A stretch of 64,000 nt of DNA from Corynespora cassiicola (lineage: Eukaryota; Ascomycota; Dothideomycetes; Pleosporales; Corynesporascaceae): NCBI GenBank assembly GCA_022059125.1, contig JAEUWY010000002.1, positions 1,922,001 to 1,986,000 on the forward strand. The letters run 5' to 3'. This document shows, piece by piece, positions 1-28,200 of the stretch (positions within the stretch are counted from its first letter, which is position 1; each line of letters opens with the position of its first letter). The notes under the pieces were generated by a model. The model saw nothing but the letters and a program-made list of their open reading frames with translations. It was not told where the DNA came from and did not search any database. A program made the translations under genes and the position numbers.

Positions 1-730
1 CCCTACTATGAATCGTAAGCTTCTACTTGACTGATCCTTGGGCCGCACTAATGACATGCTAGCATCATCTGCATCATCGATATTCTCGGCAGCATCCCCG
101 TCTGGCGTGCTTGTTCCACGTACCACCTCACCTTTCTACCTGTCCAATTCGCACTACAACTCTACCTTACAATCTCCCAACCTAGCATCATCGCCGGCCC
201 TGTCCCATACCTATCCTGAAACTCTCGATCATCCTACTGATTTTTCTCTGGCACGATACACAAACTATGCACAGGGCGAGCAACGTCTGGCTGAAGTTCG
301 ACTTGCCAAGTGGGCAACCGATCTTCAAAGGAGCATTCGCAACGAACGCGAACGATTTGAAGAAGTCCAGCGCAGCGAAAGGGCAAAATGGCTACTGGAG
401 CGCGTTGGTGAAGAAGTAAAGAACGGAAATATCGTCACTTCCCCAAGCGGATCGCCTAGGGCTGAGTGGGCCGTCGTAAGGCGAGACGGCAAAGAAGTGC
501 ACAAGGCTATGCCAGTGTATAGGAAAGCTGGTGTAATGGACTCACGGGACCCTTTGGGACTTTGCGAATTCAGCGACGAGTTCAGGAAGAGAGGTTTCGT
601 ACTCGTCAAAGTCCTGGGTGGGATGAGCGTCGCCGGTGCTGTGGTGGTCGCCGTCGTCAAGGCGTGTGGCGTCGAGACCGGGCTTCCCGAAGGTGGCGTA
701 TGGAGCTGGTTGATTGGCAGTGGAGAGTGA
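1..730 (+). CDS. Uncharacterised protein with C-terminal membrane segment (3' part)
   Basis: The reading frame is open from about 63 to the stop at 730. A probable intron at 15-62 (GTAAGC donor, CTAATGAC branch-like sequence, CTAG acceptor) joins it in frame to a short upstream exon that contains ATG at 8. That exon is open back to base 1, so the gene may begin at 8 or outside the window. The roughly 225-residue product has a Ser-rich N-terminus, then a charged helical stretch rich in Arg/Glu/Lys with coiled-coil character, and near the end a hydrophobic Gly/Ala/Val run (VLGGMSVAGAVVVAVV) that looks like one transmembrane helix. I do not recognise the family. It reads as a conserved-type fungal hypothetical anchored by its tail; no catalytic motif is visible. 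Confidence 0.6.
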
Positions 731-1040
731 GGTTTTGTGGTCATACCCCCTCTCGGAGGCTTGGTTTGTGCGGTTTGTTTTTTCAGTATTCCGGGCGTCT
801 TGGTATGATATACCCGCCGATGAGCTGTGTGTCTGGTTTGCCTACCCGACTCTTATGTATATTCATTTATACCTCTCTCAATATTCCATGTGTCTTGTCA
901 GTCCTTGCGTTGGAAGTTTATGAATCGTGATACTTGATTACGCCCCAGGTTGCCTACACAGCGCTCTTGACTATCTTCAAAGTCTCAAACTTGTGAACAG
1001 TTCAACCGGTGATATACAGAGTGAACGATTCCGAACGTTT
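731..1040. other. Intergenic, convergent 3' ends
   Basis: This stretch lies between two genes that converge. It is pyrimidine- and T-rich after the first stop, as expected for a 3' UTR. I see no gene or RNA in it. Confidence 0.5.
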
Positions 1041-4000
1041 TCAGTTACCTAGTAAGTTAACCCAGGTCCCAGGCCACAAACTCATCCTTTTCTCTTTGGT
1101 CTCCGACGATACAGTGCTACTGGCATCCTCGTCGTCAAACACTACGGCAGTGCCGATGTTTGGTGATAGATATCTGTAGTTGGAGTGCCGGAACTTTTTC
1201 CGATATCTACCTTCGCGAGCCAGGAATGAACGGGCCACGATATGATCAATGTCCTCCTATTCATTTATTTGTCAGAAGTGATGTTTCCAAGCTTCTTGTA
1301 CTGGAATGATGAGGCTGAAGTTGAGAGCTTTGAGTCTGGTGGTTGGGCCCTATGAGCCACTACGACTGACCAAAACCGTCATATTTCTGATACTGGAACC
1401 ATGGGAACAATACCATAATTCGATAATAAAGACTTTTCAAAACTCACAGGAGTAAGAGTAGGATCTAGCAAGACCGTTCCTTCGGTCTTCTCGTACCAGT
1501 GCCCAAGGTTATCCAGCTCTTCGACTTCAACAAGATCACAACTGATGATGAGGGATTCCTTCTCCGAGCTGCGGGTCATGCGTGACATATCGACAGGCGC
1601 CACTTGCGGCTTGTACGTATCTGTAACCGACTTTAAGCATGTACTTCCAAACCATAAGGAATATCCCCCCCCCCCCAAGAGACAAACTCACCACTGAAAA
1701 ACTGCGCATGTACCGGCTGCGCCCCAAAAAACCACGTCTGTCCCGATCCTTGTGACCGTTAGCACGCTCTCATCTACAATAATCTCTACCCTCTCCCCCA
1801 TTCCCACTCCCGGACAAAGCATCCCCACTACTCCAACACAGAAAATCCACATCCCCTCTATCCAATGAGCTAAAGAGAACCCTCGCTCGACTCCCATGCA
1901 CGTACGTACCTGTCGTCCGCACATACGTCGGCCTCCACCCACACCCACACAACGACCTGTACAAGTCCGCCTCCGCCGTCGACGCAGGCGGCTGCCAAAA
2001 CAGCGTGCCGCGCAGCACATTGCCCGCGGAGCCAATCTTCTCGAACCGCCCGCTCGCATCGCGGAACGGGCGTCTGCGCTCCTCGAACACGGGCTTGAAG
2101 CCCGAGCTCGCCAGGTAGTTTGCGAGCTGGTTGGCGGGGCCGCGCGGCTCGTTGGCGTCGGGCTCGTTCCAGCCCGCGCGCGGAGGGAAGATGATCACGT
2201 TGGGGGTTTTGAAGTCGTAGATTTCGGTTTCGGAGACGGCGGCGCGGCGGGGAGGGGGGTGGTGGCGGTGGTGTGGCGGCGGTGGCGGCGGTGGTGGTGG
2301 TGGTGGTGGCTCTGGGGCGTGGGGTGGGTGGTCGCCCCAGATGTCGTGTTCGTTCATTTCGGACATGTTGTAGGATTGATACTCGCCGTTGGGGTCCAAG
2401 GGCTCGTGAGGATCTGACTGGCTGGCGGTGTAGCCGTCGCATACTGAGGTCCCAGATGAGGAGTGTTGGTCTTGGTTCATGTATTGGAAGACGTCGTGTT
2501 TGCCTGGGGCTTTGCCTGGAGTTTTGCCGGCGCTGGGGGCTTTTGGGGCCATCTTTCTCTGACGGTTGGCTATGTGGGCGTTGTAGAGCTCGACGTAGTG
2601 GTCAGCCTTCTTTTGGGTTTGGGAGAGGCTTTCTTGGCTGGATTGTAGGCGGGCGTCGTACTCAGCTCGTAACTTATCCTCGGCTTCTATCTGCTGTTCC
2701 TCGTGTTTCTCGCTGAGCTGTTCGATGTCTTCCCTGTTTCTCTGGAGGAGCTTTTGGAGCTGCAGGTCTTTTTCTTTCCGGAGCTTTTCCAATTGGTCGT
2801 CTTTTTGCTGGAGAATCCTTTCCCTCTCTCTCGCCCAGTCGTCTTCCTTGCGGCGTTCGTCTTCCCGAAGACTAGATATCATGTCTATTAGCCTGTCTTC
2901 AACCTTACTTGCGGTTTCTGTAGCAGCTGCTATCGATGCATTGCGCTTTATGCTTTCATCAATTACAGTCTGCTCTTGAGCCTTACGTTCAAGCAACTCT
3001 TTCTCCTCCTTCCACCGTTCCTCTTTACGTAAGCTCATCTGTTGCAACTCTTGTATAGTATTTCTCATTTCGTCAAGCTCTAGTCTCTCTGCTTTTCTCC
3101 GTTGCTCCTCCTCTTCGTCTTTCTTGCGACTTTGTTCTCTCTTCTTATCCTCCTCCTCTCTTCTGGCTTTTGCTTTCTCCAGCTCCAGCTTACCCTGTTC
3201 AAGGCGTCTCCATTCATCAGAAATTCCGGGTTGGTCATGGTAGTTGTTATAGTACCCGTTGTAGAGGTTCCCATTCAGCAATTGCGCTGGCATGACTGGT
3301 AGGTATTGTGGGTTTTGGTTTCTCCCATCGTAAGGCACATTGTTTGACCCTCTTGCGCTTGGTAAGCCTGTGGGTAAACTTGTATGCCGAGGTGGTTTGT
3401 TCCCGGAACGCGATGTTGAAGCCTGGCCACTACTACTGGTGTTAGGGTTTCTGACTTCTCGGGATTTTTTCTTGGATTTCTGTTCCCCCCGCGTGTCATC
3501 AGAGCTGTAATCATCATCTCTTCTATGACGTATCGGGGTTTCTTCCGCAAAAGCAACTTTTGGGGCATCTTGTGTAGTTGTTGGTCTTTTGCTGGGCTTA
3601 GACCTCGCACTGCTCCCTTCGCCTATACCATTCTTAGACGCTCCTGATATCTTGGATGAAGGCACCTGAGGGTCAAATTTTATGAAGATGCCTTTTTCAT
3701 TTCGCTCAGTAGTGACTCCCGGGTAGAATTCTGACTTTGAACTTTCTCCAACTTTCACTTGGGGATGGGCTGGAGGTGGCAGACCCAGAATTGAGGGTGA
3801 CGGTGGTATGATCGATTCGTGGACTTCTGGTGCTTTTGAACCCTTTTCTTCTCCTTTGTAGTGTGCACCATTTGGCTCCAGTATTTCCTTTATGCGATTG
3901 CGACTGTGAATTCGTCCCTGGCTCGAGGGCTCATGTGGTGCACCAGGAGGGTCAGGGGCTAGCACAAGAGTCTCGTCTCGTCGCTGAAGGTTAATAGGTT

Positions 4001-5624
4001 CTTTGAAAGTGCTGTTTTCTGATGTTCCGCGGTATAAGTACTCTTCTTGTCGTCTTCTTGGCCGTCCTCGACCGTTTCGACCCCGGCTAGGGCTTCTTTC
4101 GTCTGTATTTGTTGACTCTTCGTCTTCCTTCAATTGGTTGATGATATTGTGCACTCTCTTTCTTACATTGCTATCGTATATTGTCCGCATATTCCAGGTT
4201 ATGTCACGAATTGGTCCAGGATCTAGGCTGGTCCATGTACTGAAAAGCTCGTTGACTACCGTCCCCTTGACCTCGGGCGTGGTCTGGAGTTTTATCCAAA
4301 GATCTTCAGGTGTCTCTTCAGTGATCTCGTCTTCTTCGCTATCCGAGTCCCATTGCTCTAAATCACTCGTATCCACTGTCTTCACACGACCACTCTTCCG
4401 CTTTGCTTGTTGATGTGACGAAAGGGAAGCCAACGGTCTGTGGAATATCAGATTGTACATCCATGATGCAGTCTCACTGTGAGTCTCATTCCAATCAGCA
4501 AAATGGATTCTGCGCTCTGTTCCACTATTCTTGAGGCGCTTCTCGGCTTCTAATAGCTCTCGGATGACATATCTGTTTACTTCCACCCAGTTACCCGCGA
4601 TCGCACATTGTTTCCGCAATGCAATTATATCATCAGCGTCGCTTGATGGATCATTTTTCTTCTTTTTTGTTTTTTTCTTTGGTCTAGTGCTTCATTAGAA
4701 TGAATTTATCATATTCCTTTTTGGAGCTTACCTTTTATCACGTTGTTGCTCGGCGGACGCAATTCGGAGCACGTTTACCATCAGCCTGAGAGGCGCTTTT
4801 ATGGACCGAAATATAGAAGTAACATCGCCCATGTTTTCTTCTTTGAATAATCTCTTGAGCCGGGTTGGGTTTTGGCCACGGCCAGAGGCCTCGATTTCGG
4901 TCTCATAGGGCTTTGCGAGCCCATACAAGCGGGATAGAACTTTTTCAACTTTACGCAGAAACTGTGTCGTGATGATCTGATGAAATTCATGTAGTAAAGG
5001 TTTAAGATGCTCCTTCAGCTGTTGACAGAGATCGGCCAGGTCAGTGAAGTGCTTTGCGACTGTGGTAATGGCGGGGATATAGAGTGAGTCCACAAGACCC
5101 GAGCAAATATCATAAAGCGTACGCGATAGTAAAGAGCTACGAGTGTTGATATTTTCAATTTTCTCCAAAACAGCATCAGAAATCGGCAACATGATAGCAA
5201 GATGTCTTCGAGTATGCTGTTGTGCCCAATAATGCATAGCATGAGGTTTGGGACCTGGCTTTTGTATCCTTGTCCTGTTGCCCCACCCAGAAATCGATTT
5301 CTCTGTTACCCTGTAATTTCTTCCGGTTACGTCCCGCGCAGAAATTAGGGGCTGGGTAAGCTGGAGCCGAATCCTGCGCGGATTCTGAACCCTGTACAGC
5401 AGGCGAATCAAGATGCGAGGCTGCTTATCGGTTCTCTCCTGTAACAGACGCCCGATGCAGCCAAGATAAGTGCCACAGGGCTTTTGTTGGCTCCTTCTGT
5501 TTTCCGATGAATGAGTTGCAGATGAGGAGGCTGGGACAAGGCCCCTAGAGTTATATTATTTCAGATATTGTGATGAGATTATACCCATTAAAAGGTCTTG
5601 AGCTGCCTCGAATGATGTTTCCAT
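1041..5624 (-). CDS. Large coiled-coil protein with poly-Pro tract, function unknown
   Basis: This is a spliced gene. I read exons at 1041-1256, 1448-1620, 1692-1748, 1910-4683 and 4732 to about 5440, with canonical splice sites and matching phases. The 5' end is less sure: ATG at 5624, a short intron 5545-5584, then a frame that fits the main exon only if a one-base shift lies near 5440-5450. The product is about 1300 residues. It has a helical N-terminal region, a basic KKK-rich linker, an acidic low-complexity stretch, a long Glu/Arg/Lys coiled coil (about 2600-3250), a 12-residue proline run near 2290, and a conserved-looking globular C-terminal part containing PPRAGWNEP and TWFFGAQPVHAQ. 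I recognise no enzyme motif. It lies head-to-tail downstream of the lipase gene, but nothing shows that they work together. A mutated partial copy lies at 11.69-11.83 kb. Confidence 0.7.
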
Positions 5625-5702: not shown

Positions 5703-7023
5703 CTATTTCCCAGCCTGTTTTTGCCCCCATGCCCTCATAGCCGCGTCCATAACCGAGGTTCCATCGCCGGAGGAAATGAACTAAACGTATCAAAAGAGAT
5801 CAGTTCTCTGGAAATTCATTGAAGACCAATACATACCTGATGTGAAACTTTCTGGTGCACTGAGTCCTTCACAGTGCCAACTACATGGCCAGAAACAATA
5901 CCATAGTTGAGGATTCCATCGCCTTGCTTCAAATCACCAAGGCGGATGACAGTCTTGCCACTGTTCTACGAATATTGTTAGCAAAGCTAAGCTATTCTCG
6001 GAGTATCTTACTTCATTATCCATCTTGTCGTTTGACCAATTCTCCATCATTAGTTTCAGTGTGTTTGTGATATCAATATATCCAGTCATTTCGGGGTTCA
6101 AGAACCTGCACATTCGACAGTGGTCGGCATTGATTGCCATACCATCGTCTCCTGCAAGTGTCGCAGATTCTTTTGTGACTACCAGCCCAAGATCTTTCTT
6201 TTTTCTCCAGAAAGTTTTTTTCGTTGACATTGTCTCAAAAAAGCATGCAACTTGAATGGGTGAGAGCTCCTTCGAAGTGTAGCGCCTTCTTAGCAACTTA
6301 TGAAAGTCATCCGTGATCATCTGGAGTTTCACGGACCTCTTGTCAAGGTCCTTGATTGTTTGGTCATTGCTGTCGCCAAAAAGCCCTAGAAATTTTTCAG
6401 CTAGTTTGGCCCACACAATTTTGTCTGCACCCTTGAATGGAGTTCCTAAGAATATTGTACCACATGTACTATTGATGACTTCCTGTCGTTGCTCGTTTGA
6501 GCTAGACTGACCTGACAAGCCATTTGCAACTACTAATCCTCCGAGAGAATGTGCCACAAATATTATGGGTCGTTTTTGCTATGTAATAATCAGTTGGTTA
6601 AGAGATATGGTAGATTTGGGCGTCTTGCCGTGCCAGTTTGTTTTCGAAGATTACCTAATCTGACCAATAGCGAAGTCGAATTGTCATCTATTGAAGTGTG
6701 TGCTATGAGGTCCGGTTTGATCAGCGGATAGAATGTTGCGAATTCAGTATAGTATCCGAAGCTGAAAATCCGACTGTTTGGTATTGTCTTGGGCAGGAGG
6801 TCTTTGGGCCAGAACACCCGCTCCTCTTCGTCGTCCAGGTCAATGTCTTCCCAGGTCTTCCTCGGATGGCCTCGCAGTCCGTGAACAAAGACAATGCTAT
6901 ATTGTTAGCACTTTCATGGCGTATTTAGAAAGTAACCTACTCGAACTTTGCCTGTTCGCCACTATCCCATAACTCGTTGAGCCCGTCATTCATCATGTCA
7001 CTGGTATTATCCTCTGCGTCCAT
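5703..7023 (-). CDS. Alpha/beta-hydrolase (SesB/DUF676-like lipase) with C-terminal amyloid-like motif
   Basis: I read five exons: 6941-7023, 6629-6896, 6012-6578, 5837-5965 and 5703-5780 on the minus strand, 374 residues, all phases consistent. The intron 6579-6628 uses a GC donor. The fold is a serine hydrolase: FVHGLRGHPRKTW oxyanion strand near residue 30, nucleophile elbow AHSLGG with Ser128, the family motif FLGTPFKGAD, and INADH with Asp269/His270 as likely acid and base. This family includes fungal lipase-like effectors linked to heterokaryon incompatibility. Residues 307-374, encoded by the last two exons, are not part of the hydrolase. They carry an Asn/Gly-rich segment (NYGIVSGHVVG, 326-336) that resembles the N-terminus of the divergent NLR gene. 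No signal peptide is visible. Inference: the executioner half of an NLR-triggered pair, with an enzyme domain tethered to an aggregation motif. Confidence 0.85.
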
Positions 7024-7819
7024 CGATGCTAGCTAAAAGACTTGCCAACCAAATCTTTGAGAGAATCTGGTAGTAGGTAAATACGGACTATCATTGAAAC
7101 GTTCGCGTTTTACATCAAGCGGGGTAGGTGGCAGCATATGCCGGTTCTAGCTTCGCTGACCCTTGCAAAATGCGTGCGTTCGCGTGCATACACGACGATT
7201 GTCCGTCTTACATGCATGTATTTGGAGTTCAGCCTTGCCATGGAGTTTATCATGAAATTTTTATCGGCATTTGAGCTAGATTTAGATATGATAGATTCCA
7301 TCTCGTATTTGACTGGCTACCACCACAGCCGCTTACGTTACATCAATAGCAATTCGCGCCGTGCGCCTGCAGCCTGCTATTATTGCCCAGCTTAGTTGAT
7401 TCTACCGAGGGATAGAGCTTTGGCCGGCTTCACGTGTTGGTTGGATGCGACAATGCGTGAACTGTGGGTCTATTCTGCAGGGTGAAATTATGTCGCATCA
7501 GTAGTGTGGGGGCGAAGAGCAACAAAGAGTGGTTCTCAAGCCACTTGACTGACCGGAAGGCAAATTTCCCTGTCCATCCACTTGGGTATTTAATTCAATG
7601 ATATGCGATTATTACGCGCCGGACCTTCTGGCTGTGCCATAGCGACACGCATGTATCCATGGCTTACGCCCACTCTCAATCCCGAGTTGGAGCCTATATC
7701 GCAGCGCATTCTCACCCCGCACATCCATCCGCACCTTTACCAGTCAAACTAGTATCACCCCTTCAACTTATGATGATGTAAATATATCAATACACCATTG
7801 TCAACTTTTGTTTCTACAA
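7024..7819. promoter_or_regulatory. Shared upstream region of the divergent lipase and NLR genes
   Basis: About 800 bases separate the two divergent start codons. Small reading frames are present but none looks coding. The layout means both genes must take their promoters from here, so joint regulation is possible. I could not assign specific factor sites. Confidence 0.5.
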
Positions 7820-10800
7820 ATGGCTGCAACCTTTCCCAATACCATAGCGCAAATTGGTAGGCAGATTGACCTTGGGTCTGTCCAGCATGCCGGTGACAAT
7901 GTTGCCAGTCCGAACTATGGTCAGCAGGTCGGCGGACATATCATTGGTCTCGATCGGAGCGTCATGAGTAGGTCTGTCTTTCTTACTCATAAATATCTGC
8001 TTACGTTGCTGAACAGACTTCACAACAAATAATGACTTCCATATGGCACCTGGGGCAACTTTGAATGTTAGCAGTGGAGGTACATGCTTCTTTTTGAGTG
8101 GTCTATTGAATAGAGCTGATCTGAAATCAAGCTTTCGAACAACGAGAAGCTCTTAATGCCTGGCTCAACAAAGATACAGATCTAGACTTCGAACATATCC
8201 ACCGGTCTAATATTTCGCAGAGACAAGAAGGAACAGGGTCTTGGCTTCTTGAGCAAAAAGAATTCATATCCTGGCGTGACAGCTCGCCCAGAACACTATG
8301 GTGCTACGGGATTCGTAAGCATGCTATCTTTTGCACAAGACAAACACTCACCTGTAATAGCTGGTTCGGGAAAAACATTCATGTCGTAAGCTTTCTGACG
8401 CACGTGTACCTTTCTCAGAAATAATTAAATGCAGATCAATTGTGATTGAACATCTCGAAGAAATTTGCAAGCCCGATACTGCTTGCCTTTTCATATTCTT
8501 CGATCATCGCAGCAAGGCTGTCCCGACTGTCCAGAGTCTCCTGTTTCATCTACTTGGGCAATTGGTTTCAAAACGAAATGAATTGTCTGATGTAATTCAA
8601 CGCCTTCACACCGAATACAAATTTCGAACAACATTACCCAGCCGCAATCGTCTTATACGAGATATGAAACAAGAAATGGAAAGTTTCAGGAAAATCTGGC
8701 TAGTCATAGATGCTTTAGATGAATTCCAGACGCAGATTTCGTCGAGCACAAGGATAGCCTTTCTGAAAGCAGTCTATGAACTTCCACACACCATGAGCGT
8801 TTTCATCACATCTCGAGACGCAAAGCCTTCACACCAGGTATCTGAGTCTCTCTACACGATTGAGATTGCTCTACACGAGAAGGATTTAAATGAATATGTT
8901 GAAAGTCGTATCAGAGACTGCTGCGATGAAAATTCGTATCTTGCGAAATTAGACGTTAGGACTGTGGTGCGAAAGATCTCACAGCATGCTCGAGGGATGT
9001 TCCTACTGGCGCGTCTTCATATGGATAATCTAGCCAGCCAGCGAACAGATGCCGGTCTAAAAGCCTCCATGGAAACTTTACCTTCAACTATCAATGGAAC
9101 TTATGCGGAGTCAATGCAACGAATCCCGAGCTCAGACAAGCTGTTGGCTGAGCAAATCATTCTATGGACGGCTTTTTCCATGAGACCTCTAACAATGATG
9201 GAGCTTTTGACCGCATTATCAACAAAAGAACATATGAAAAATACTTCTTGCTCCAAAGATCACATAATTGACGAAGGTTGCATCGCATCAGTATGCGCCG
9301 GTCTGGTTATGGTGGACTCAGAGGCCATGCCTACCACAGTTAGATTGGTCCATCCTACAGCAGAAACTTACTTTCGAGAAAAGTACTTTGCACAGAATTA
9401 CGCTCATACCGTCATGGCGCACACTTGCATCTGGTATCTTCTCTTTGAGGATTTTGCCATACAGACGGAAGAGGAGTGTCAGACCAGCTGTAAGCTCAAA
9501 GAGTTTCCGCTGCTTCATTATGCAGCTCTCAATTGGGGCAATCATGCTCGATATTCACAAGGTGATGATACCGTGAAAATAATCCTTCAACTACTAAATC
9601 GTAGGGGGAACCTTTCTTGCGCAGCTAAAGTCATGGACCTGACCAATGAAAACCTCTTTTCGCCGCTTTGGATGGCGGCATATTTTGGCTTGGAGACAGT
9701 TGTGGAAGAACTTTTGTCAACCGATTCTGATTACCATCTTGCTGCAACCAAAAATGGAGAGACAGCCATGCATGCTGCTGCGGAGTATGGGCATGTTGAA
9801 GTGGTAACCAGGCTGCTTTCAAACTGCCGTGTGGAACCAGATATCCCTAATATTTCCGGAAGAACACCCCTTTCGCTCGCTGCAGAGAACGGACATTATG
9901 TAGTCGTTCGTAGTCTTCTCCTCTCTGGAAAAGTCAATCCTGATTCGAAAACCCACTGCGCCGTCTATGAGGGCCGAACGCCATTATCTTGGGCTGCTGG
10001 AAATGGCCATCTTGATGTTGTCGATCTGCTCCTCGAGACAAGAGGAGTTGATGTTGATTCCAAAACATCTGGAGAGACTTTTCGCGGACGTACACCACTC
10101 ATATGGGCGGCAGCAAACGGCCACAAAGATGTGGTAGAACTACTTTCGAACAAAGGAAGAGCCAATGCTAGCTTGAAAGACTACCAAGGATTCAATGCTT
10201 TGTTCTGGGCCACCCAGAATGATCATGGAGAGATTTCAAGAATGCTAAAAATCGGTGGGTCATATGATATGGGTGATGGTACGGAGAAGAACGGCGAAGT
10301 ACAAACACTTGAGGTGTTAAAGGTGATGGGGTTCGATTTCGATTACCAGGATTATGATTCCAAGGATGAGGACGGACGAACGAACATTTCATACCAAGCG
10401 GAAAAGGGAGACACAGACCTTGTCGACTGCTTGCTGGGACTCGGTGCAGATCCCAACGGTACGGATGGAAACGGAATGACCCATTTGATGTATGCCTCAG
10501 CAAACGGTCGCACTGCATCCGCGAAGCTGCTTCTAGAGCAGAAAGCGATGCCCGATCTTAGATGTCATCTTGGCCGTACAGCCTTATCCTACGCTGCAGA
10601 TGAAGGTCACAAAGAACTAGTAGAGCTTCTTCTCAAATTTTCTACGGGGCTGGATCTCCCGGATAATTACGGCCGAACCCCGTTGTCCTTTGCGGCACAA
10701 AAAGGGCGCAAGGAGGTGGTGGAACTTTTGCTCGAATGGTCTGATTCCCCTGATTTTCCGGACGAAGATGGCCGAACGCCACTATCATATGCGGCGGAGA

Positions 10801-11153
10801 AAGGACACGAAGAAATAGTAGCGTTAATGATAGCATTGGGTGAAAAGGTGGATATCGATTCCCAATCCCAGGGGATACTTGGAGGTCGAACGCCTCTCTC
10901 CTGGGCTGCTGGTAGCGGCGAAGCGATGATTGTGGAAACACTTTGGGCGGCAGGCGCAGACGTGAACCTCAAAAATAGTGACATCTACCTTACAGCTAAA
11001 GAACCCAAAGAGTGGGCCAGGATGAAGGGGCACGGACATGTCGTCAGATTTCTCGAAGGAACAGGTAAATTAAGAGAACCCAGTGAGGATGATTGGCTGT
11101 TTAGCCTGGGAGGTACCAATGCTGGGGATATTTCTATTGGGGATCTTGATTAG
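7820..11153 (+). CDS. NLR protein: amyloid-like N-terminus, NACHT NTPase, ankyrin repeats
   Basis: Exons 7820-7967, 8017-8079, 8132-8314, 8361-8385 and 8435-11153 splice in phase to 1045 residues. Residues 1-70, from the first two exons, are Gly/Asn-rich and carry NYGQQVGGHIIG (32-43), matching the C-terminus of the divergent lipase. A linker with FEQREALNAWL and RRQEG-like ISQRQEGTGSWLL follows, then the P-loop GIPGSGKT (130-137) and Walker B LVIDALDEF (about 229-237), typical of fungal NACHT STAND proteins. From about residue 540 to 1020 there are at least ten ankyrin repeats with GRTPLSWAAGNGH-type cores, several nearly identical. Known family role: ligand sensing by the repeats opens the NACHT domain, which oligomerises and seeds a downstream effector through the N-terminal motif. 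The partner assignment is inference from motif and location. Confidence 0.9.
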
Positions 11154-17111: not shown

Positions 17112-18603
17112 ATGACTCTTGAATCTAGACCTGAGCTAAAAGTTGCAATCTGGTACATTATTCTGGATTTTCTTTTTAGAAATTCAGCTAACAGTTGGTA
17201 GTGGAGGTGGAATTGCCGGTTTGACTGTCGCAGCTTTCCTTGCCGAACGTCCTGATATACAGGTTCACGTATTCGAGAGCAAACCTGAAATTCGAGCGAT
17301 TGGCTCAGGAATTGCCATATGGAAAAGATTTTGGGATATCATTGAGAATTTTGTGGATTTTGAACAGCAATGTATTCACCGTGGTCTAAGAGTCCAGTCA
17401 TGGTCAGAAGGTAAGTCCAAAAAACGTATTCTCTCGTTTTTATGTCTTCCTTATACAGCTCTCACTGAAATTTCTGCAACTCCAGTGAATGGCCCAGTTC
17501 TTCGAAAAGCCGATAGCATTGAAGGTGGACACAACTTTTCCAAAATACCACATGGGCCCCGACTTATCCCTCGAGATGATCTTCTCGACATTCTTCGCAT
17601 TCACGCCGAGGCTAAAAGGTGTTATATAAACACGAACAAAAAAATGACTTCATATGCACAAGGCAACTCGGGGAGAGTAATCCTATCCTTTGAAGACAAC
17701 ACTAGCTTCACGGCTGATCTCCTTATTGGTGCTGACGGAGTTCATTCACGTGTGCGCCAGCATATGTTTTCAGGAAACAACGTCTTATCGCTTCCAAAGT
17801 TCAGCGGCCAGTTCGCGTACAGAATGAGCTGCCCGCGTGCTGAAGTTGAGAAACGATATCCCGATAACGTAGCGCTGCATGGGTTCAAGATTGTAAGTCA
17901 CCCGGCCAATTTAATAGCTCACTAATGCGACTGACAATTGGCGCAGTGGTGCGGGAAAGGACGACACATAACATCCAACACCGTCCGAGACGAAATTCAG
18001 ATGACAGCGTACGATAACGTTTTCGACGCCGACGGAGTTGCTCCTTCATTCAACGGCCCATGGGTTGCCGAGGTGCCCGCAGCGCAAATCGCCGAGCGTT
18101 ACGCCGATTGGGAGGCAGACCTGGTCAACCTCCTGCGAGTCCCAAAGACTGCATCGCGATGGGCAATTCACGTCGTAACCCCACTCCCAACATTTGTAGC
18201 TGACCGCGTGTGCCTGATCGGTGACGCAGCGCACGCCATGACTCCACACCAAGGGCTTGGCGGTGGTCAAGGAATAGAAGATGCATATATCTTGGCACGA
18301 CTACTGCAGAATCCATTGACCACTGCGTCGGTTTTGCCCCAGGTACTGAAGATCTATGATTCTATTCGCCGACCAGCCTCCCAGGCCGTAGCCAACCAGT
18401 CGTTTACTAACGGGCTGACCTACGGATTCTTGGATACAAGGTTTTGCGGCGCCAAGCTGAGGGAGATTGGAGAAGAAGTAATCGAAAGCTGCTTCTGGCT
18501 CCTAGAGGATGAGGGTGCAGAAAAAGAATGGTTGAAAGCAAAGTCGCAATTCAATGCCCTGCTCGAAAACCCGAATTTTTTTTCATTGTCACACACATTA
18601 TGA
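17112..18603 (+). CDS. FAD-dependent monooxygenase, salicylate-hydroxylase-like (5' end uncertain)
   Basis: The main exons are about 17190-17410, 17486-17892 and 17947-18603, with clean introns 17411-17485 and 17893-17946. The product has the N-terminal dinucleotide motif GSGGGIAGLT, the DG motif GADGVHSRVR and the GD motif CLIGDAAHAMTPHQGLGGGQ, as in class A flavin aromatic hydroxylases of about 430 residues. ATG at 17112 gives MTLESRPELKVAI, just what should precede VGSGGG. However, the available donor (GTACAT at 17153) and acceptors do not join the frames, leaving a one-base mismatch. Either the first intron is unusual or a single-base lesion has hit the start. The rest is intact. Likely reaction: NAD(P)H-dependent hydroxylation, possibly decarboxylative, of an aromatic substrate in the cytosol. 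Confidence 0.78.
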
Positions 18604-18924
18604 ACAGTGGTCAAGATGATATCTAGGGAGTCAAATAAAATGCTTTACACTGCTGCCGGATTAAAACTCGATCGTGTAGTGCTCCCATGTCGGCACTATT
18701 AGCCTATCATCAGTTGGAGCAGATGCCCTTTAATACTGGGAGGTTCTTACATAATTGATGATATATATATGTTTAAGCAGCTATCCCCGGCCATCGGCTC
18801 TCTAACTATATAGTCATATCTTCGCCAAAAATACATACTATTGAACATTTGCCATTTCCTCTACACCATATCAGATCATTAGATCTTTGAAAAGAGCCCG
18901 GATTGCCATTGCTACTTGAGCACC
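18604..18924. promoter_or_regulatory. Intergenic/promoter of the PhyH-like gene
   Basis: An AT-rich gap ends in the start context CACCATGG at 18921-18928. A TATA-like ACTATATAG sits near 18806. No gene is visible. Confidence 0.4.
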
Positions 18925-19836
18925 ATGGCTTCTTACCAAGTCCAATACATCGACGTACCAGAAGAGGAGCGGAATGTTCGCATGCCCAGCGCAGAAACGG
19001 TCGGTGCTGCAGTCTCCATCATTCATCGGGATGGCATTGTAGTCATACGAAATGTTGTCGACAAGCCCTCAATCGCAAAAGTCAACTCAGTGCTCATCGA
19101 ACAATCCGAACGACTGTCACAAGATCCATCCACACATTTCAATCAAGACAAGGCTGCCCGCAATATCTCACAACAACCACCTACCACCCCAGAGCTCATG
19201 TTTGACTCTATCTGGGCCAACCCCTTCGCAGCAAGCATCAGCGCAGCGATTCTAGGTCCAAATCCACGGGTGCATTATGTGAACGGAAACACGGCACTAC
19301 GCTCAGAAGAGAGACAAACTGTCCATGCAGACCTTGACCACAACCATCTGCGTTTTCCTTTTGCCTTGGTGGCAAATTACTATCTCACTGACACATGCCC
19401 GATCAACGGCGGAACCGAAGTGTGGGTCGGAAGTCACCGTGACACGAGCATTGCTGATCATGTCGAATCTCGCGATGCACCGGGAGGACTATCAAGTATC
19501 AAGCCCAGTCTTGTTAAGGAAAGGATGGAACAAGCCCCGCCTGTGCAGATTTCGGTCAACGCGGGCGACCTCGTACTTCGGGATGTGCGGTTGTGGCATG
19601 CTGGGATGCCCAATCGCACTAATAATCCCCGCATCATGCTCGCATTTCTTATTTTTCCTTGGTGGTACCAGACACCCATGAAAATAGTGCTTCCAGCGAC
19701 AGCCAAGCCGTTGCTGAGTAGATGGACCGAGGAAACAGGGCTGGAGTTTGAAGTACAGTGGCTGGAAGAGGGTGAAAAGCCCGCGAAATTCTTTGTAACT
19801 ACTGCCTCCGCCAATAGACAGCTGGTCTATGGCTGA
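18925..19836 (+). CDS. Phytanoyl-CoA dioxygenase (PhyH)-family Fe(II)/2OG oxygenase
   Basis: A single exon of 303 residues. I chose ATG 18925 because its context, CACCATGG, is a strong fungal start and the protein begins in the usual place. The iron-binding triad is visible: His134 and Asp136 in VHADLDHN, and His225 in LRLWHAGMPN-like sequence, followed by Arg in NNPRIM, which would bind 2-oxoglutarate. GTEVWVGSHR between them is the typical PhyH loop. Fungal PhyH proteins in clusters hydroxylate, desaturate or open rings in small metabolites. No targeting signal is obvious. It lies between the FAD monooxygenase and the beta-glucosidase on the same strand. Confidence 0.85.
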   Translation: MASYQVQYIDVPEEERNVRMPSAETVGAAVSIIHRDGIVVIRNVVDKPSIAKVNSVLIEQSERLSQDPSTHFNQDKAARNISQQPPTTPELMFDSIWANPFAASISAAILGPNPRVHYVNGNTALRSEERQTVHADLDHNHLRFPFALVANYYLTDTCPINGGTEVWVGSHRDTSIADHVESRDAPGGLSSIKPSLVKERMEQAPPVQISVNAGDLVLRDVRLWHAGMPNRTNNPRIMLAFLIFPWWYQTPMKIVLPATAKPLLSRWTEETGLEFEVQWLEEGEKPAKFFVTTASANRQLVYG

Positions 19837-20135
19837 GCAATACAATCCTACAGCGCTTAACTGTCTCAAAGCGACACTAGTGATAGAGATGCATATCATG
19901 TATGACCAAGTGGAATAATTTAGCAAATGACCCATCCAATCCAAAAAGGAATTATCATACATGCATGCATGAGCAAAAACCACAGAGTTTTCTGTGTTTA
20001 GTATTAGAAAACATGTGAGGTAATTTGAAACAAGACTTGTTAGCAAAGTTCCGCGACAGAATCACGACAGCCGAATTTGGAGGACAGGTCCAAGAATTCA
20101 CTGAAGCCTCCCTTCGCCCCACGAGATCTATCACA

Positions 20136-22885
20136 ATGGCAGACATCGATGTCGAAAAAGTACTTTCGCAGCTTTCAATTGCTGAAAAATGTGACATCAC
20201 ATCTGGTAGAGTTTCTCTATCCTATTGTGATTTTGATTTCTGTCGGCTGACTCGATTCAAGGACTTGATTTTGCCCACACGCTTCCTATCCCACGTCTAG
20301 GCATCCCACCACTAAGAACCAGCGATGGCCCTAATACAGTACGCGGTACACGCTTCTTCAATTCAACTCCAACAATATGCCTTCCAGCCGGGCCTGCGCT
20401 TGCAGCGACTTGGAACAGAGCGTTGCTCCAAGACATTGGAGGCTTGTTAGCAGACGAATCGATTGCTAAAGGGTCACATGTATTATTGGCACCATGTGTA
20501 AATATACCGCGATCGCCACTAGGAGGGAGAGGTCATGAAGCATTCGGGGAGGACCCTCTTCTCGCTGGTGTGCTTGCAGGGCATATGTGCATTGGTATCC
20601 AAGAAAAGGGCATCATTGCGACGCCAAAACACTTTTTGTGTTCGGATCAAGAGCAGGGTTGCTTTAGTATGAACTGTATTGTCACTGAACGTGCACTACG
20701 TGAGATGTACCTGATGCCTTTCATGTTAGCTATCAAGATTGGCGATCCAGGAGCTATCATGGCCGCATACAACAAGATCAACGGGGTTCATGTTACCGAA
20801 GACAGGAGAATCCTCCATGAAATCTTAAGAGAGGAGTGGGGTTTTCGCGGGTTGGTCATGAGCGATTGGTATGGTCCCCCCTCTTTCTTAATTCCATTTG
20901 TGCCCTATCACAACGTTGGACAGAAACTTGCCCAAAGCTTCTTTCATTATATCTCTATCATGATCTTGGCTAACTATGATGATGACAGGCATGGTCTCTA
21001 CGCGACTACATCTCCTATACGAGCGGGATTGGACCTTGAGATGCCAGGCCCCAATCAGTGGAGGGGTAAAAGTCTAGCGCATTCGCTCTTGGCTAATCGA
21101 CTGAGCATCCATGACCTCGACAACTGTGTACGGCGTATTCTCAACATGGTCAAAGAAGCCGAACGCTCCAGGATCCCCGCAGAGGCACCCGAAATGCCTC
21201 TCAACCGCGAGCAAGACCGTCAACTGCTCCGTCGTGCAGCAGCAGAGTCAATCGTACTTTTAAAGAATGAGGGGAACATACTTCCACTAGATCCCAAGAA
21301 GCCTATTGCGGTGATTGGTCCCAACGCGGCTATTGCAGCATATAGAGGAGGTCGCATAGCCCATCTTCGGCCTTACTATACAGTGAGTCCTCTGGAGGCC
21401 ATTCGAAAGAGGAGTGAAAGTCCCGTCAGCTTTTCCCAGGGGATCTACAACCACAAAGAGAGACCCCTCTTAGGCCATCAGCTTCGTACTAGCACCGGCG
21501 AGCTGGGATTCGACATGTACATCTATACCGAGCCGCCGAATGCCCTGGATCGTAAGCCCGTAGATCACTATGAGTTCCTTAATTCCTGCGGGTACTTTCT
21601 CAACTATGAGAACCCAGACCGGATCGATGGTGAGAACTGGCATGTAGATATATCGGGCCGCCTTACAGCCACGGAATCAGGCCCATATGACTTTGGCGTT
21701 AGCGTTCAGGGCACTGCGAGCCTTTACGTGGACGGAGAGCTAGTAGTAGACAATACTAAAGATCAGCAATTCGGCGAAGGATTCTTTCGTGCGGGTACGG
21801 TGGAAAAGGTCGGCACTGTCAAGCTCGTTAAGGGGCAGACATACGATGTGCTTATCCATTGGGCTGGAGCTCACACTTCAGATCTTATTAAGAATTCTCC
21901 TCTTACATTTCACCCGGGAGGTATTCGCTTAGGGGGATGTTACCAAATGGATGTTTCGGCCTCCATTCGAGCCGCCGCAGAACTAGCGGGACAGGCGGAG
22001 CAGGTGGTTCTCCTCGCTGGTTTGATGGGTGACTGGGAGAATGAAGGCGCAGATAGGCCCAGCATGGACCTTCCAAAACACACCGACGACCTCATCAATA
22101 GCGTTCTTGACGCGAACCCCAAGACCGTGGTTTGCATCAGTTCAGGAAGCCCAGTGACAATGCCATGGGCGGATCGCACGAGTGCCTTGCTACACGTGTG
22201 GTATGGCGGTAACGAGACGGGGAATGCCATCAGCGACGTACTCTACGGCGATGTCAACCCGTCAGCCAAGCTACCGTTGTCGTTCCCGATACACTTGCGC
22301 GACAACCCAACATTTTTGTGCAGTCGAGCGGAGCGACGGCGCATCTTGTACGCGGAGGATGTTTACGTCGGATACCGCTTCTATGACTCAATGGAGAAGC
22401 CTGTCTTGTTTCCATTTGGACATGGGCTTTCTTATACAGATTTTCGTCTCTCGGATCTTCAATTCCAGGTTCACGGTGTCCGCGACAAAGCCATTATCGA
22501 GGTGCTAGTCAATGTGGAAAATGTAGGCTCTTATGACGGAGCCGAGGTTGTGCAGGTGTACATTGAGCCTCGGGATCCGAGTGTTGGACGACCGACTAAA
22601 GAACTAAAGGGTTTTGAGAAAGTCGGTGTCGTCAAACAGTCCGAAAAAACAGCCACAGTTTTGTTGGAGCTCAAGTATGCATTGGGATTCTGGGACGAGG
22701 CGGAGAATCGCTGGGTCTGTGAGAGTGGGGATTATGAGATACTTGTAGGAACAAGTAGTAGAGGAGAGATCCGAACGGGTCGCATCTCACATATGCACAT
22801 GGTATACGAAAAAGCGGTGAATGTCCCGATAACGTTGGCTGTCAGGATCGATCGTCTGTTGAATCGCCCGCAGAGGGATGCGTAA
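20136..22885 (+). CDS. GH3 beta-glucosidase with PA14 domain
   Basis: Exons 20136-20205, 20262-20868 and 20989-22885 give 857 residues. The order is GH3 N-terminal barrel, C-terminal GH3 domain interrupted by a PA14 module (about 21490-21900), and a fibronectin-III-like end. The nucleophile Asp lies in GLVMSDWHG, spliced across the second intron. GDWENEGADRPSMDLP holds the probable acid/base Glu, and GGRGHEAFGEDP the substrate-loop residues. It starts MADIDVEKVL with no signal peptide, like intracellular PA14-type fungal beta-glucosidases, so it probably cleaves glucosides inside the cell. The neighbouring UGT and ABC transporter suggest a glycosylation/deglycosylation cycle or use of imported glucosides. 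A truncated paralogue lies at 31445-32115. Confidence 0.92.
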
Positions 22886-22914
22886 GGGAACGCGGTCATG
22901 ATTTCTAGGCTCCA

Positions 22915-23220
22915 TCAGCTGTCACTTCCACTATCAAATCTAGAATCAACGCTGGTAACATTACCGATGAGTGACGAGATGGTAATATTGTATGCGTTTA
23001 CCGTGGCCAGGTCTTTCTGTATCGAAACCACCTTACACATCTCTTCGTTCAGGTCCTCGTCTGGGCCGACGATTCTGGGATTTTTACTCAAGTAGTAGGC
23101 CCGGCACAAATTGAATTCGATGATGCGCAACAAAGGGGTTTTGAATAGGGCTTGGCCCAGTGACATGATTATCAATAGGGCGCCGCATCCCCAGGCTGTG
23201 CGATATCTTGAAAATGACAT
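22915..23220 (-). pseudogene. N-terminal fragment of an MFS-type transporter
   Basis: From the ATG at 23220 a 101-residue frame reads LLIIMSLGQALFKTPLLRII, one hydrophobic helix, then CRAYYLSKNP and EEMCKVVSIQKDLATVNAY. That resembles the first helix and following loop of fungal MFS drug transporters (TP..RL.E...CR.YY). The frame ends after a further short hydrophobic part, and no later transmembrane segments follow downstream, where the GH3 gene ends. I read it as a truncated relic rather than a small protein, though a short membrane protein cannot be excluded. Confidence 0.5.
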
Positions 23221-23409
23221 GGTGTGCAGGAGATGTAGAGGACGATCCAACTCTGCGGAGATGAAATATCCGAGGGTGTACGCTCTCACGTGATGCGGCG
23301 GCCATCTGCGCGATGTGCATCTGGCCCGTCAGACTTTGGAACCTACACTAAGATAACACACCTACTGAATGATTATTCAACACCAGCGTCCACCTACATA
23401 CAGCGACTT

Positions 23410-24743
23410 ATGGAATCCCATCAAAGGCCTATATTGATCATCGGTGCCGGCATTGCTGGACTTGCCCTTGCCCAGGGATTAAGAAAGGCATGTGCCACTT
23501 TTCAACTTTGATGGCGCGAATTCACGATAATGACCAAAGAACCAGAAGGGAATCCCGTTCCTCGTCTTCGAAAGAGACATATCTTCAGATAGCCGCCCGC
23601 AAGGATGGGCCCTCACGATTCACTTCAGTCTACAGCTATTGCTGGATTTTCTCCCGGTCGATATTGCCAGCCGCTTGCATACAACCCAAATCGACCCTAA
23701 TGTTAAGCATGACAAAAGTCATTCAGTGTTTTTGAATTTGGAGAGCTGCTCACCCAAGTGGTCTCTTCCTCCAACGTACGGAAACCGCATGCGAGTCGCT
23801 CGCGGACGGCTTCGCACGCTACTAATGGAGGGGCTTGAAGAGCGCGTTCTATGGGGAAAGAAATTGCATTCCTTTGATATTGGATGCAATCAAGTTACTA
23901 CCAGTTTCGAAGATGGGACTGTCTACACCGGGGAACTTCTCGTTGGAGTCGATGGCTGCCACTCGACCGTTCGCTCACTCATGTATGGGCCAGACCTATC
24001 TCAACCCAAGCCTATCCCGGCCTGTTTCCTGGGAACCCAAGCTCTGGCCACACCGTCACAAATGAAGCCACTCCTTGCGTTGGACAAGACCTTGTTTCAG
24101 GGCAGCCACCCTTCGAGTCCTGTGTGGATGTGGTTTTCGGTCATGGATCGCCCGGATCCGACTGCGACGGCTGGAGGAGCATCGTTTTGGCGCGTCCAAA
24201 TCTGCCTTTCGTGGCTTTCGCCTGCCGGAAACTCAGATGTTCCCAAGGACAGTGAGGGACGTGTCAGGCTAATGAGAGAAAAGTCTAAAGACTTTCACCC
24301 GACCTTCAGAGACATCTTCCTTCACATTTTGGGTGACAGCCACGGACCCATTGTCAACGTACCTTTGGAGTTTTGGTGGCTGCCTCAAGACGAAAAACCA
24401 AGCACATTGCAAGATCGCGTATTCTTAGCGGGTGATGCAGCACATACCATGCCGTTATGTTCGTTTCTCTGGGTTCTTGTTGCGTATACAGAAGTCGCTG
24501 ACGTCCGCAGATCGTGGAGAGGGGTTCAACCATGCCCTCATGGATGTACACCACCTCATCAAAGTTGTAGTTTCTCTACTTTCTAAACAAAAAGGTCAAG
24601 AAAACCACATGGAGAACTACGAAGACGAGATTAGATCGCGCGGTCGACAGGCGGCACTAATGTGTCGCGATGCTTGCCTCGAGGTCCATCAACTAGACAA
24701 ACTCGGGGACCACTCAGTAGTTCGCCAAAAGGCCTTCCCGTAG
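23410..24743 (+). CDS. FAD-dependent monooxygenase 2
   Basis: Exons 23410-23487, 23549-24458 and 24511-24743 give 406 residues. The first intron (23488-23548) begins with GC instead of GT: AAAG|GCATGT. The join then yields LRKGIPFLVFERD, exactly the expected second strand of the FAD domain. Motifs: IIGAGIAGLALAQGL at the N-terminus, VGVDGCHSTVR (DG motif, with G.DG) and VFLAGDAAHTMPLYRGEGFNHAL (GD motif, spliced with a GTTCGT donor). The sequence SSDSRPQGWALTIH is typical of a subgroup acting on fungal aromatic or polyketide metabolites. It differs clearly from the first monooxygenase, so it is not a recent duplicate. Same strand as the ABC transporter that follows. Confidence 0.85.
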
Positions 24744-25243
24744 AAAACTTTGAGGCTGTATTGGTCTTTTTTCTATTTTATTTTCTTGATGTTCCTTCTT
24801 CTCTTTGTCTTTTCGGGCTGTGCGTATATACGGATTCATCTCCACATTACGTGCCCCTTTGCCTCATTCGCCCATTTTGCTTTCATACACTCCTTACGAA
24901 AGAAAACTTGAGGCCCACAGGACCACCACGCTTGGTATCCGAACTGATCTTCAGGAGTTCGTTGCCGTTGGCCTGATTCGCTCCGTGAGATCGCAAAATT
25001 CTGGGGCTTGTCGAACGGGCAGCTGAACGATCTGTGCAGTCTCCTTTCTGGCATGATCACCAAACCACTGACATATTTTTCTTGCTACCGACAGGCCAAA
25101 ACATTGTTGCGCTGGCCAAAGATAGCAGCTGGAACTTTGGCCATGAACTCTAATTGTCATTTCCCATGAACTGCCTGCTAGGCGAACTTGCCTTTCCTTC
25201 TTAACTACGTATAATAATACCATGATGTAGTCACGCATTTCGC
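24744..25243. promoter_or_regulatory. Intergenic/promoter of the ABC transporter
   Basis: Five hundred bases with no coding signal. It contains a T-rich 3' flank of the monooxygenase followed by the upstream region of the transporter. Confidence 0.45.
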
Positions 25244-28200
25244 ATGTCAGGAGCGAGCACCATGTATATTTTTCGGAGCTGGTACGACCTCGTTCAGGCG
25301 GGGCAATTTATCTTCGGGGTTACTTTGAGCGTCCCTGCGTGCGCGCACCTTTTCCGCTGGCTTCAACGATCGGATCTCCGGCAGTCAGCTCACGAACAAG
25401 GACGTCGATATCAAGATGAAGATGGCGAGGCCTCAGAAGAGTCGACACAAATGTTTGCGGATCGTTTTCAGCGAGCCGTTTTTGCGGCTTGCGCCTTCAT
25501 TGGAAGTCTTTCGTCTTTTGCACGCGTCATGTCAGCCCCGCGCATGACGGAATCGCTCGAGGAGGTGTTCCAGTTCGGGATTTGGGTGAGTACCATCTCC
25601 TTCTTTCTCCTTGAAAGCCAAATGAGGAATATCGGCCGCCATTGTTAAACACAGGGCTAATATAAATGATACAGACAGCTTTAATGCTACAATCACTAGC
25701 CTTATTCACTGAACCATCGGCTCCACGCCGTTTTAACGTCGCCGTCCTAGGCAGCATCAATTGCCTAAATATAATTTGCGCACTTTCGATAGGAGTTTAT
25801 CTCCACTCAATTCAGTCCAAATCTGCGCAATCCAGAGATCGCATTCTTGTAACCACCGAACTCGTATCAGCCGGGCTGGCCTGTCTGCACGGGTTCTTGC
25901 TGCCACGCCGACCAGATGTTTTCTGGAAAGGAGCTCTTGTCGATCGGCGATCTACAAGCTCCATTTTCGGCCTCGTTTTCTTTTCGTGGCCCTGGTCTGC
26001 GCTACGCTCTCTCTCTCGAAACCCAGCGCTCGAGATCCATGGTCTTCCTGAGCTGGATTTCACCACGCGCTCGCTTCATTTGTTTCAACGTTTCCAGCAG
26101 CAGCGATTTATGAGAGAGGAGGATTGTCCGCTTTGGAAACTACTTCTGTTTTCCTACTCCCGGGCGCTCTTCGTGCAGTTGAGCCTCACTGTGTTTGGAT
26201 CTGCTATCAGCTTCGCACCACAAATGATGTTGCTTGGCATTCTGCGCGCCATGGAAAAAGACAATGGCGAGGAGAGAAATCTCGTTACTTTAGCTGCATG
26301 GGCCCTCGGTCTAGGCCTCAGTGCTATCGCCACTGCTTTAGTGGAGAAGTGGACCGTCTGGCTCTCGAGCATGGATCTGGGCGTCAAAATGCAGAAGCAA
26401 CTTACCATGGTTCTTTTCGACAAAATGCTAAGAAGCAAAGATTCGAGGATGGCAACTGAGAAAACAGAAAACGAGGATGAAGATGTAAATGAAAGCGGCT
26501 TCAATATCATCAACCTCGCCGCTCTGGATACGCAACAAGTCGGAAACTGTATGCGCGACATATATCGCGGCTATGAAGCGCTCATTAAGCTGAGCATAAC
26601 TTCTGCTCTAATCCAGAAGCTCATGGGGTGGCAGAGTCTTGTCGCTGGGTCTGTCGTAATGATCCTACTTCTGGCCGCCAACGCAAATATCACGCGGAGG
26701 TATGCGCGTGACCAATATGGACTAATGGCTCACAAGGATGCACGTATGGCTGCCGTGACTGAAGCTGTACAAGTAATCTTTCAAATCAAGATTTCTGGCT
26801 TAGAACACAGTTGGGAGTCTCGCATTCTTGAGCAGCGACAAAGGGAACTTGACTCCTTGTGGGTTGTGAGTCAATGGAATATCGCAGCAAGGGCCATTTG
26901 CGCTGTGACACCTATCATAATCTCAGTTCTGGTCATTTCTATGCATGTTTACGTTACGGGGAGCTTGAAGGCTTCGACGGCATTTACTTGCCTGTCGATT
27001 TTGGGATCTATCGACAGCACACTGGACGCTCTTCCCCAACTACAATCCGGCTGCGTTGGTGCCTTAATCAGTCTAAAGCGTCTACAGAACCATCTCTATA
27101 CGCCCGAGAATCATTTTCCTTCAACCCCAGATGAAACAATTGGCTTTGACAATGCCACTGTTCGCTGGCATGGATCCGGACCAGACGGCTTCTCTCTTCG
27201 AAACCTGACGCTTTCTTTCCCCCCTGGCGCGATCAGTATAGTTGAAGGTCCCACAAGATCTGGCAAAAGCCTGTTACTTGCTGCCATCCTAGGAGAGTGC
27301 GAACTGGTGCGCGGTAACATTGCGACACCCTGTTCTTCCACCGGCTTGCCCGCTGACATCGATCACGCTTGGCCGATGCCATCAGCCATAGCATACGTTC
27401 CGCAAACGCCCTGGATTGAGAACGCTACAATCATGAAGAACATTATATTCGGCTCTCCGATGCAGACACGGCGATACAAGAAGGTGCTGCAGGCCTGTGC
27501 TTTGGAAGCTGATTTGGCAGCTCTGGAGCATGGCGACCAAACCGAGATTGGACCCAAGGGTGTAAACTTGAGTGGTGGCCAACGATCCCGGGTCGCGCTG
27601 GCGCGCGCCCTCTACTCCCGGGCTAGCGTTATGGTTCTCGATGACATCTTCAGTGCAGTCGACGCGCGGACCGCTCGGCACATAGCTAACCATGTGTTGG
27701 GCGGTTCTCTCACCAAAGCGCGCACTGTGATATTGGCATCGAACCACCTCTCCCTTTGCAGCCCATATGCTGATTACATCGTCTCTCTTTCTGGAGAAGG
27801 CCAGTACACGTGCGCGCTTGCGGAAGACTTTGTTCGCCCAGGGCTAGAGGATGCTCCCTACAGCACCAATGGTTTTGCACCGGCACGTAGTCATGAGATG
27901 AGCACAGAAGCTATATCGATGCACTCTCGCAAGCCTTCCTCACTTTCGGTGCTCTCTTTTGATCCAGCCGCAATGCAGGACTCTGACGAGGCGGCTATCG
28001 CTCCCAAATATGTTGAAGATGAACACCAGCGAACCACAGGTCTACAGCACAAGACTCTGGCGCAGTATCTACAAAACATTGGAGGCCTCTGGTTTGGACT
28101 GTTTGTACTGGTAATGTACATAGGACAGGTTGGTACGCTTTTAGGACAGGTATGGCCTCCCTTTCTGGCAATGGATCTTGTGGTGATACTAACTTACTCA

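Follow-up and report, generated by a model that had tools for sequence, protein, structure and literature searches.

A divergent lipase/NLR gene pair of Corynespora cassiicola that shares a terminal tag, most likely from an unlabelled motif family

The window analysed here is a 64,000-nucleotide stretch of the Corynespora cassiicola genome (contig JAEUWY010000002.1, C2 in the locus names below, positions 1,922,001 to 1,986,000). It encodes a stand-alone SesB-type alpha/beta-hydrolase (a putative lipase) and, divergently transcribed 796 base pairs (bp) away, a NACHT-ankyrin NOD-like receptor (NLR). The C-terminal tail of the lipase and the N-terminus of the NLR have in common the pattern I.LG...GD....NYG....GH[VI][VI]G, referred to below as the tag. 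We propose that the two genes probably form a receptor/effector module, in which the NLR relays its signal to the neighbouring lipase via this homotypic tag. The pair is most likely of the HET-S/NWD2 kind with a motif family as yet unlabelled, one that no Pfam amyloid-motif model matches. An earlier note, made from the letters of the stretch, had described such a divergent pair, and the spliced gene models confirm it:

5703..7023, minus strand: SesB-type alpha/beta-hydrolase (putative lipase), stand-alone, 374 amino acids (aa), 5 exons, spliced gene model
7023-6941, 6896-6629, 6578-6012, 5965-5837 and 5780-5703, minus strand: lipase exons, gene model
5837..5965, minus strand: lipase exon 4, residues 307-349, 43 codons, phase 0/0, bearing the C-terminal tag
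5941-5876, minus strand: lipase tag core, LG...GHVVG, within exon 4
5703..5780, minus strand: lipase exon 5, residues 350-374, FISSGDGTS segment and C-terminal end
7024..7819: intergenic stretch between the divergent lipase and NLR, 796 bp, perhaps their shared promoter
7820..11153, plus strand: NACHT-ankyrin NLR, 1045 aa, 5 exons, spliced gene model
7820-7967, 8017-8079, 8132-8314, 8361-8385 and 8435-11153, plus strand: NLR exons, gene model
7865..7948, plus strand: NLR N-terminal tag, residues 16-43, inside exon 1
8017..8079, plus strand: NLR exon 2, residues 50-71, where the likeness to the lipase fades

The landmarks LG, NYG and GH[VI][VI]G lie at residues 315, 326 and 332-336 of the lipase and at residues 18, 32 and 39-43 of the NLR, in agreement with the positions given in the earlier note. 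Its placement of a common segment at the effector C-terminus and the NLR N-terminus is also supported statistically. A profile of lipase tails built from 16 homologues, with the window lipase excluded, retrieved the window NLR from among 68 NLR N-termini at E=2e-4, and none of 20,000 composition-preserving shuffles matched the score of that N-terminus. Direct alignment of the two single sequences gave a score of 42, reached by 19 of 5000 shuffles. The profile-profile comparison suggested as a check was significant by its P-value: hhalign, run on 17 rows of lipase tails against two NLR N-termini (rows that include the window lipase and the window NLR), returned P=2.5e-4 with a probability of only 43%. 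Finally, when open reading frames (ORFs) from all six frames were scanned, 7,582 in total from the window and further loci (minus eight loci that overlap the window), the NLR exon was the top match besides the lipase's own exon.

The lipase assignment draws on both sequence and structure. Matches to Abhydrolase_6 and DUF676 in the window protein both fall below the Pfam cut-offs. A protein search found 563 homologues at E<=0.001, 120 of which were listed and underlie the counts and scans given here; 117 of these 120 match DUF676 at E<=0.1. Among the matches listed, the closest is P0001 from Paraphaeosphaeria minitans (63% identical). Residues S128 (in AHSLGG), E232 and H270 are invariant across a 22-row alignment and likely represent the catalytic triad. 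Intron 2 (6628-6579, minus strand) is modelled as a 50-nucleotide GC-AG intron and probably is one: the one alternative GT donor tried breaks the frame, and aligned homologues are continuous across the junction (LGN.R..T...RPIIF).

An AlphaFold2 model of P0001, computed from a 28-row alignment, has a mean predicted local distance difference test (pLDDT) score of 73. Its hydrolase core is mostly confident, though confidence is low at 90-94, 170-177 and 182-197. Foldseek searches with this model returned serine hydrolases, esterases and monoacylglycerol lipases with E down to 3e-8, the query TM-scores being 0.30-0.40 among the 50 matches listed. The tail at 302-358 has pLDDT <50 except at two residues and shows no secondary structure; a short helix follows at 359-371, in the part corresponding to lipase exon 5. 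By this homologue model, the lipase tag is predicted to sit outside the folded effector domain, as the earlier note had held. The note had also assigned both segments to separate small exons; the lipase tag fills exon 4 (43 codons), and the NLR tag lies inside exon 1. The NLR itself matches NPHP3_N (E 2e-34), NACHT, GPIID_WHD and Ank in Pfam, and has a P-loop (GIPGSGKT) at residue 130 and a Walker-B-like LVIDALDE at residue 229.

The tag is conserved in the lipase family. Across 17 rows the tail reads approximately I-x-[LF]-G-[DN]-[VF]-x-x-G-D-x-[VI]-x-N-[YI]-G-x-[IV]-x-G-H-[VI]-V-G-T-T-x-[ND]-A-V-N, and tagged homologues occur in Paraphaeosphaeria, Cirrosporium, Bimuria, Glarea, Leptodontidium, Clarireedia, Halenospora, Nannizzia and Monosporascus. 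The tail profile reaches at least 27 bits in 16 of the 23 best lipase matches, 15 of these 16 having been profile input. Applied to the other 104 listed homologues (120 minus the 16 profile builders), a profile that includes the window lipase scores 17 at E<=1e-3, some over part of its length. The tail of P0022 has diverged yet is significant (E 3e-6). A group of distant lipases (P0069, P0032, P0049, P0030, P0046 and P0022) was also seen to have a related but distinct tail, for example MGDVNF..KI.NN.GVVMGHAYGT. Across the 120 lipases, the only signalling-motif match among the 25 of 41 Pfam families listed is Ses_B, a label carried by P0079. Given the 17 further tail matches and this single label, the tag looks like an unlabelled but widespread family on SesB-type lipases.

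The earlier note had named orthologues that lack the segment as a refuting condition, and in some homologues the tag is missing. The tail of P0020 is not significant against the tail profile (E 0.5), and no tag is found in P0011, P0014, P0015, P0016 and P0021, nor in P0066 and P0072. The untagged tails diverge near the intron preceding the tag exon, and their first new residue is V. Since this fits read-through of a GT donor, we do not count the untagged homologues as true losses, and the missing tags of P0011, P0014-P0016 and P0021 may well be gene-model artefacts. On the receptor side, the closest NLR relative, P0121, is 42% identical over 95% of window NLR residues 1-300 and retains 19 of the 28 tag positions, GDNVASPN included. 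Among 67 NLR matches the tag was found in P0121 only, by profile and by inspection of the first 150 residues; at least one other match, P0125, appears truncated ahead of the tag region. The likeness had further been thought to continue into FISSGDGTSV of the lipase and FHMAPGATLNV of the NLR. The likeness does run into NLR exon 2, but this extension is not clearly kept in P0121, and support ends at about the common F.

Few fungal NLR-linked motif families have been described: HRAM, PP, sigma, PUASM and the provisional GDQN (PMC9815663, PMC12261475). In addition, NLR motif classes without a partner include NLR17, 19, 20 and 34 (Wojciechowski et al., PMC9815663, Table 1). The window tag may lie at the edge of the sigma, HRAM or PP family, or belong to an unpaired class such as NLR34, in which case the pair would be an ordinary one. 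We regard this as unlikely, though it is the alternative to be taken most seriously. The Pfam models HET-s_218-289, NACHT_sigma and Ses_B match none of 17 tails at E<=10, the two window tag segments match no Pfam family at E<=1, and the tag is thus not recognised by the curated motif models searched. Nor was a description of the tag met in the consulted parts of the literature on fungal NLR-linked signalling motifs (PMC9815663, PMC5485727, PMC12261475, PMC4518210, PMC8086366 and PMC12258605). The earlier note had seen no obvious match to the sigma or HET-s pattern, and the comparisons below, as far as they reach, agree with it.

The sigma cluster of Nectria haematococca (Het-eN, SESB, SESA) resembles the window locus in that an NLR and a SesB-type lipase are clustered and have a motif in common (PMC5485727). 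The sigma motif is about 40 aa long with a threefold repetition of two submotifs (PMC5485727). A half-versus-half profile comparison made within the tag family showed no repeat; a candidate internal pseudo-repeat was rejected, 154 of 200 column shuffles being equally good. Sigma is also N/Q-rich (PMC8086366). PF17106 (NACHT_sigma) finds no match in the tails or the window segments. In contrast to the sigma cluster, no SesA gene was identified in the window locus, although no search was aimed at SesA. The PP set of Chaetomium globosum (PNT1, HELLP, SBP) likewise has a lipase among the effectors that the NLR controls via a common motif (PMC5485727). The PP motif centres on a conserved Q, whereas the pattern GxQxG occurs in one of 19 sequences of the window family and no PF17046 (Ses_B) match was found. 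That one sequence is the window NLR, and its GxQxG run, as in PP/RHIM, is what speaks for a known class.

HET-S/NWD2 and HRAM1-5 pair an effector C-terminus with an adjacent NLR through a common motif, as here, but their effector is a HeLo-type pore-former rather than a lipase (PMC4518210). HRAM motifs generally consist of two repeats, each 21 aa long, in which certain hydrophobic positions are conserved (PMC4518210). PF11558 (HET-s_218-289) matches none of the 17 tails. Compared ungapped with the HRAM core (G19 and hydrophobic residues at 5, 8, 10, 16 and 18), the tag sequences agree at no more than three of five positions, with a mean below that of shuffles, and no repeat was found. PUASM and the provisional GDQN are recent fungal NLR-linked motifs with PNP_UDP and SesA effectors (PMC9815663, PMC12261475), in contrast to the hydrolase encoded here. 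Neither the PUASM pattern (FxGxGxQxxGxGxF) nor the GDQN pattern occurs in any of the 19 sequences.

We propose for the lipase the role of an NLR effector because, elsewhere in this genome, the same kind of enzyme is joined to nucleotide-binding (NB) domains. Three hydrolase-domain queries located at least 13 SesB-type places. Besides the stand-alone lipases, nine of these have an NB domain downstream. These and the two further pairs discussed below are as follows:

Window, C23:256432 and C20:15921: stand-alone SesB-type lipases found
C5:1868792, C2:4599408, C6:325911, C6:350377 and C4:336889: SesB-type directly upstream of a same-strand NACHT match, unspliced
C2:421486: SesB-type and a NACHT match within a single 1796-aa frame
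C13, C15 and C16: SesB-type with NB-ARC-like frames, as read from the frames
C23:253500-261500, divergent pair: lipase 2924-4015, plus strand; NLR-like gene 2403-523, minus strand
C20:13000-21000, convergent pair: lipase 2838-3980, plus strand; neighbour 5615-4937, minus strand

At C10:107695 (C10:105200-109200, minus strand), what looks like a SesB-type lipase precedes an NLR C-terminal/TPR-like part, possibly a remnant; the 4 kb inspected there show no NB domain. Genome-wide there are 123 NPHP3_N matches, counted per exon, several of them with identical scores at two places, and the NLR repertoire looks large and recently duplicated.

The other two stand-alone lipases also resemble a neighbour. 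The C23 lipase ends in FSSGNISVGRDFSIRRGAQ and its divergent neighbour, which has AAA_16 and NB-ARC matches below cut-off, starts with MDQVAADGLSAAFGDISVGRDLTI. The two ends have G[ND]ISVGRD[FL][ST]I in common, a sequence unrelated to the window tag, and the C23 tail as a genome query finds only itself. At C20, the lipase tail (...NNNGTITNFAQRDMRI...) is matched at the N-terminal start of the convergent neighbour (...NNGTSNNFAQRDIHI...), the only other match of this tail genome-wide, at E 0.017; within the 10 kb that flank the lipase on its opposite side, no ORF reaches 110 aa. The own-neighbour tag scores at the window, C23 and C20 are 42, 41 and 78, reached by 19, 6 and 0 of 5000 shuffles, figures that are to be discounted roughly twofold for each locus, each lipase having been compared only with the neighbour that showed prior likeness. 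The off-diagonal comparisons of the 3x3 set score 20-31, reached by 314-3192 of 5000 shuffles, and show no cross-match. We tentatively suggest that each free-standing SesB-type lipase is wired to its neighbouring gene by a private tag. Three motifs, mutually unrelated and without cross-match, would then be in use, and at least one of them would be a new family with a wide spread among the tails of ascomycete lipases; the odds of this are slightly less than even.

Several results, along with the choice of neighbours just described, weigh against these readings. In the six-frame scan the NLR exon reached only E=0.41, and the lipase tail, searched genome-wide, failed to reach it at E<=10. Conservation on the NLR side comes down to one relative, P0121, a metagenome protein that the lipase profile scores at only 2-4 bits; among the 68 N-termini it came next after the window NLR with 3.4 bits, reached by 151 of 20,000 shuffles. 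A search with NLR residues 1-70 against 5.8 billion proteins gave 18 candidates, none at E<=10. The short lipase-NB distances were taken as fusions from unspliced sequence. The C23 tag match is 11 residues long. At C20 the neighbour, 192 aa in length, has neither an NB domain nor a significant Pfam match, and so may be a degenerate receptor, or else an adaptor or a tagged protein in its own right.

Queried with the tags of the lipase and the NLR and with a related tail, the 44.35-Mb, 23-contig genome yielded no other credible copy. The P0017 tail found the window lipase as its sole match; the P0022 tail gave no match, which is little informative without a positive control. A match to the lipase tag on C15 (E 0.4) lies in a frame that by eye reads as that of a chaperonin subunit; we take it as chance. 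A sequence search of the PDB with the tag returned two chains of one acylase kind at E 1.4-1.5.

The tags could instead be a matched docking interface, at which beta-augmentation or tail recruitment would draw the lipase to the oligomerised NLR with no self-propagating amyloid involved. Such an interface would have the same tag placement and one-to-one matching, but we think it rather improbable. The two proteins carry the same sequence twice and not complementary surfaces, which is what homotypic templating predicts, and short NLR N-termini and effector C-termini are where described amyloid signalling motifs are placed (PMC9815663). The lipase-NACHT and lipase-NB-ARC genes of this genome also raise the thought of gene fission, in which a former lipase-NACHT fusion would have split into the pair, leaving the likeness as a duplicated linker with no signalling role. 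This appears very improbable: fission alone gives rise to no repeated segment, diverged lipases retain the tag, in P0121 it is better conserved than its surroundings, and the two other pairs have tags that are unrelated but also matched. That two glycine-rich tails resemble each other by chance is the hardest to credit, short as the motif is and weak as the six-frame E value is, in view of the shuffle result, the rank among ORFs and the two further matched pairs.

The module in which the NLR relays to the lipase is thus supported by the beyond-chance tag match, the conservation of the lipase tail, the unstructured P0001 tail, the NB-linked copies and the two further pairs. This also upholds the motif-pair reading of the earlier note, in which the amyloid part is by analogy. 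By analogy with other members of its family, the NACHT-ankyrin NLR would sense a ligand and oligomerise, bringing its flexible N-terminal tags together into an ordered cross-beta fold. This fold may then template the unfolded counterpart tag at the C-terminus of the neighbouring lipase, so that the lipase would cluster and its hydrolase become activated. Lipases that pair with NLRs have precedents in SBP (PP motif) and SESB (sigma motif) (PMC5485727), and, from these, the outcome would most likely be regulated cell death or incompatibility.

Elsewhere in the window, two FAD-monooxygenase-like ORFs and ORFs resembling a phytanoyl-CoA dioxygenase, a beta-glucosidase and ABC transporters stand in a row at 17140-30465 (read by eye), possibly a metabolite cluster. 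Two consecutive long ORFs at 45584-52261 (plus strand) resemble separase, also by eye.

The tag adds a lipase-linked candidate motif, with a usable profile, to the few described fungal NLR-linked motif families. As this genome holds three lipase/neighbour pairs with matching tags, the avoidance of cross-talk in parallel templating pathways becomes testable with short peptides. If each free-standing lipase does have its private tag, then tag diversification would insulate several parallel templating circuits within one cell.

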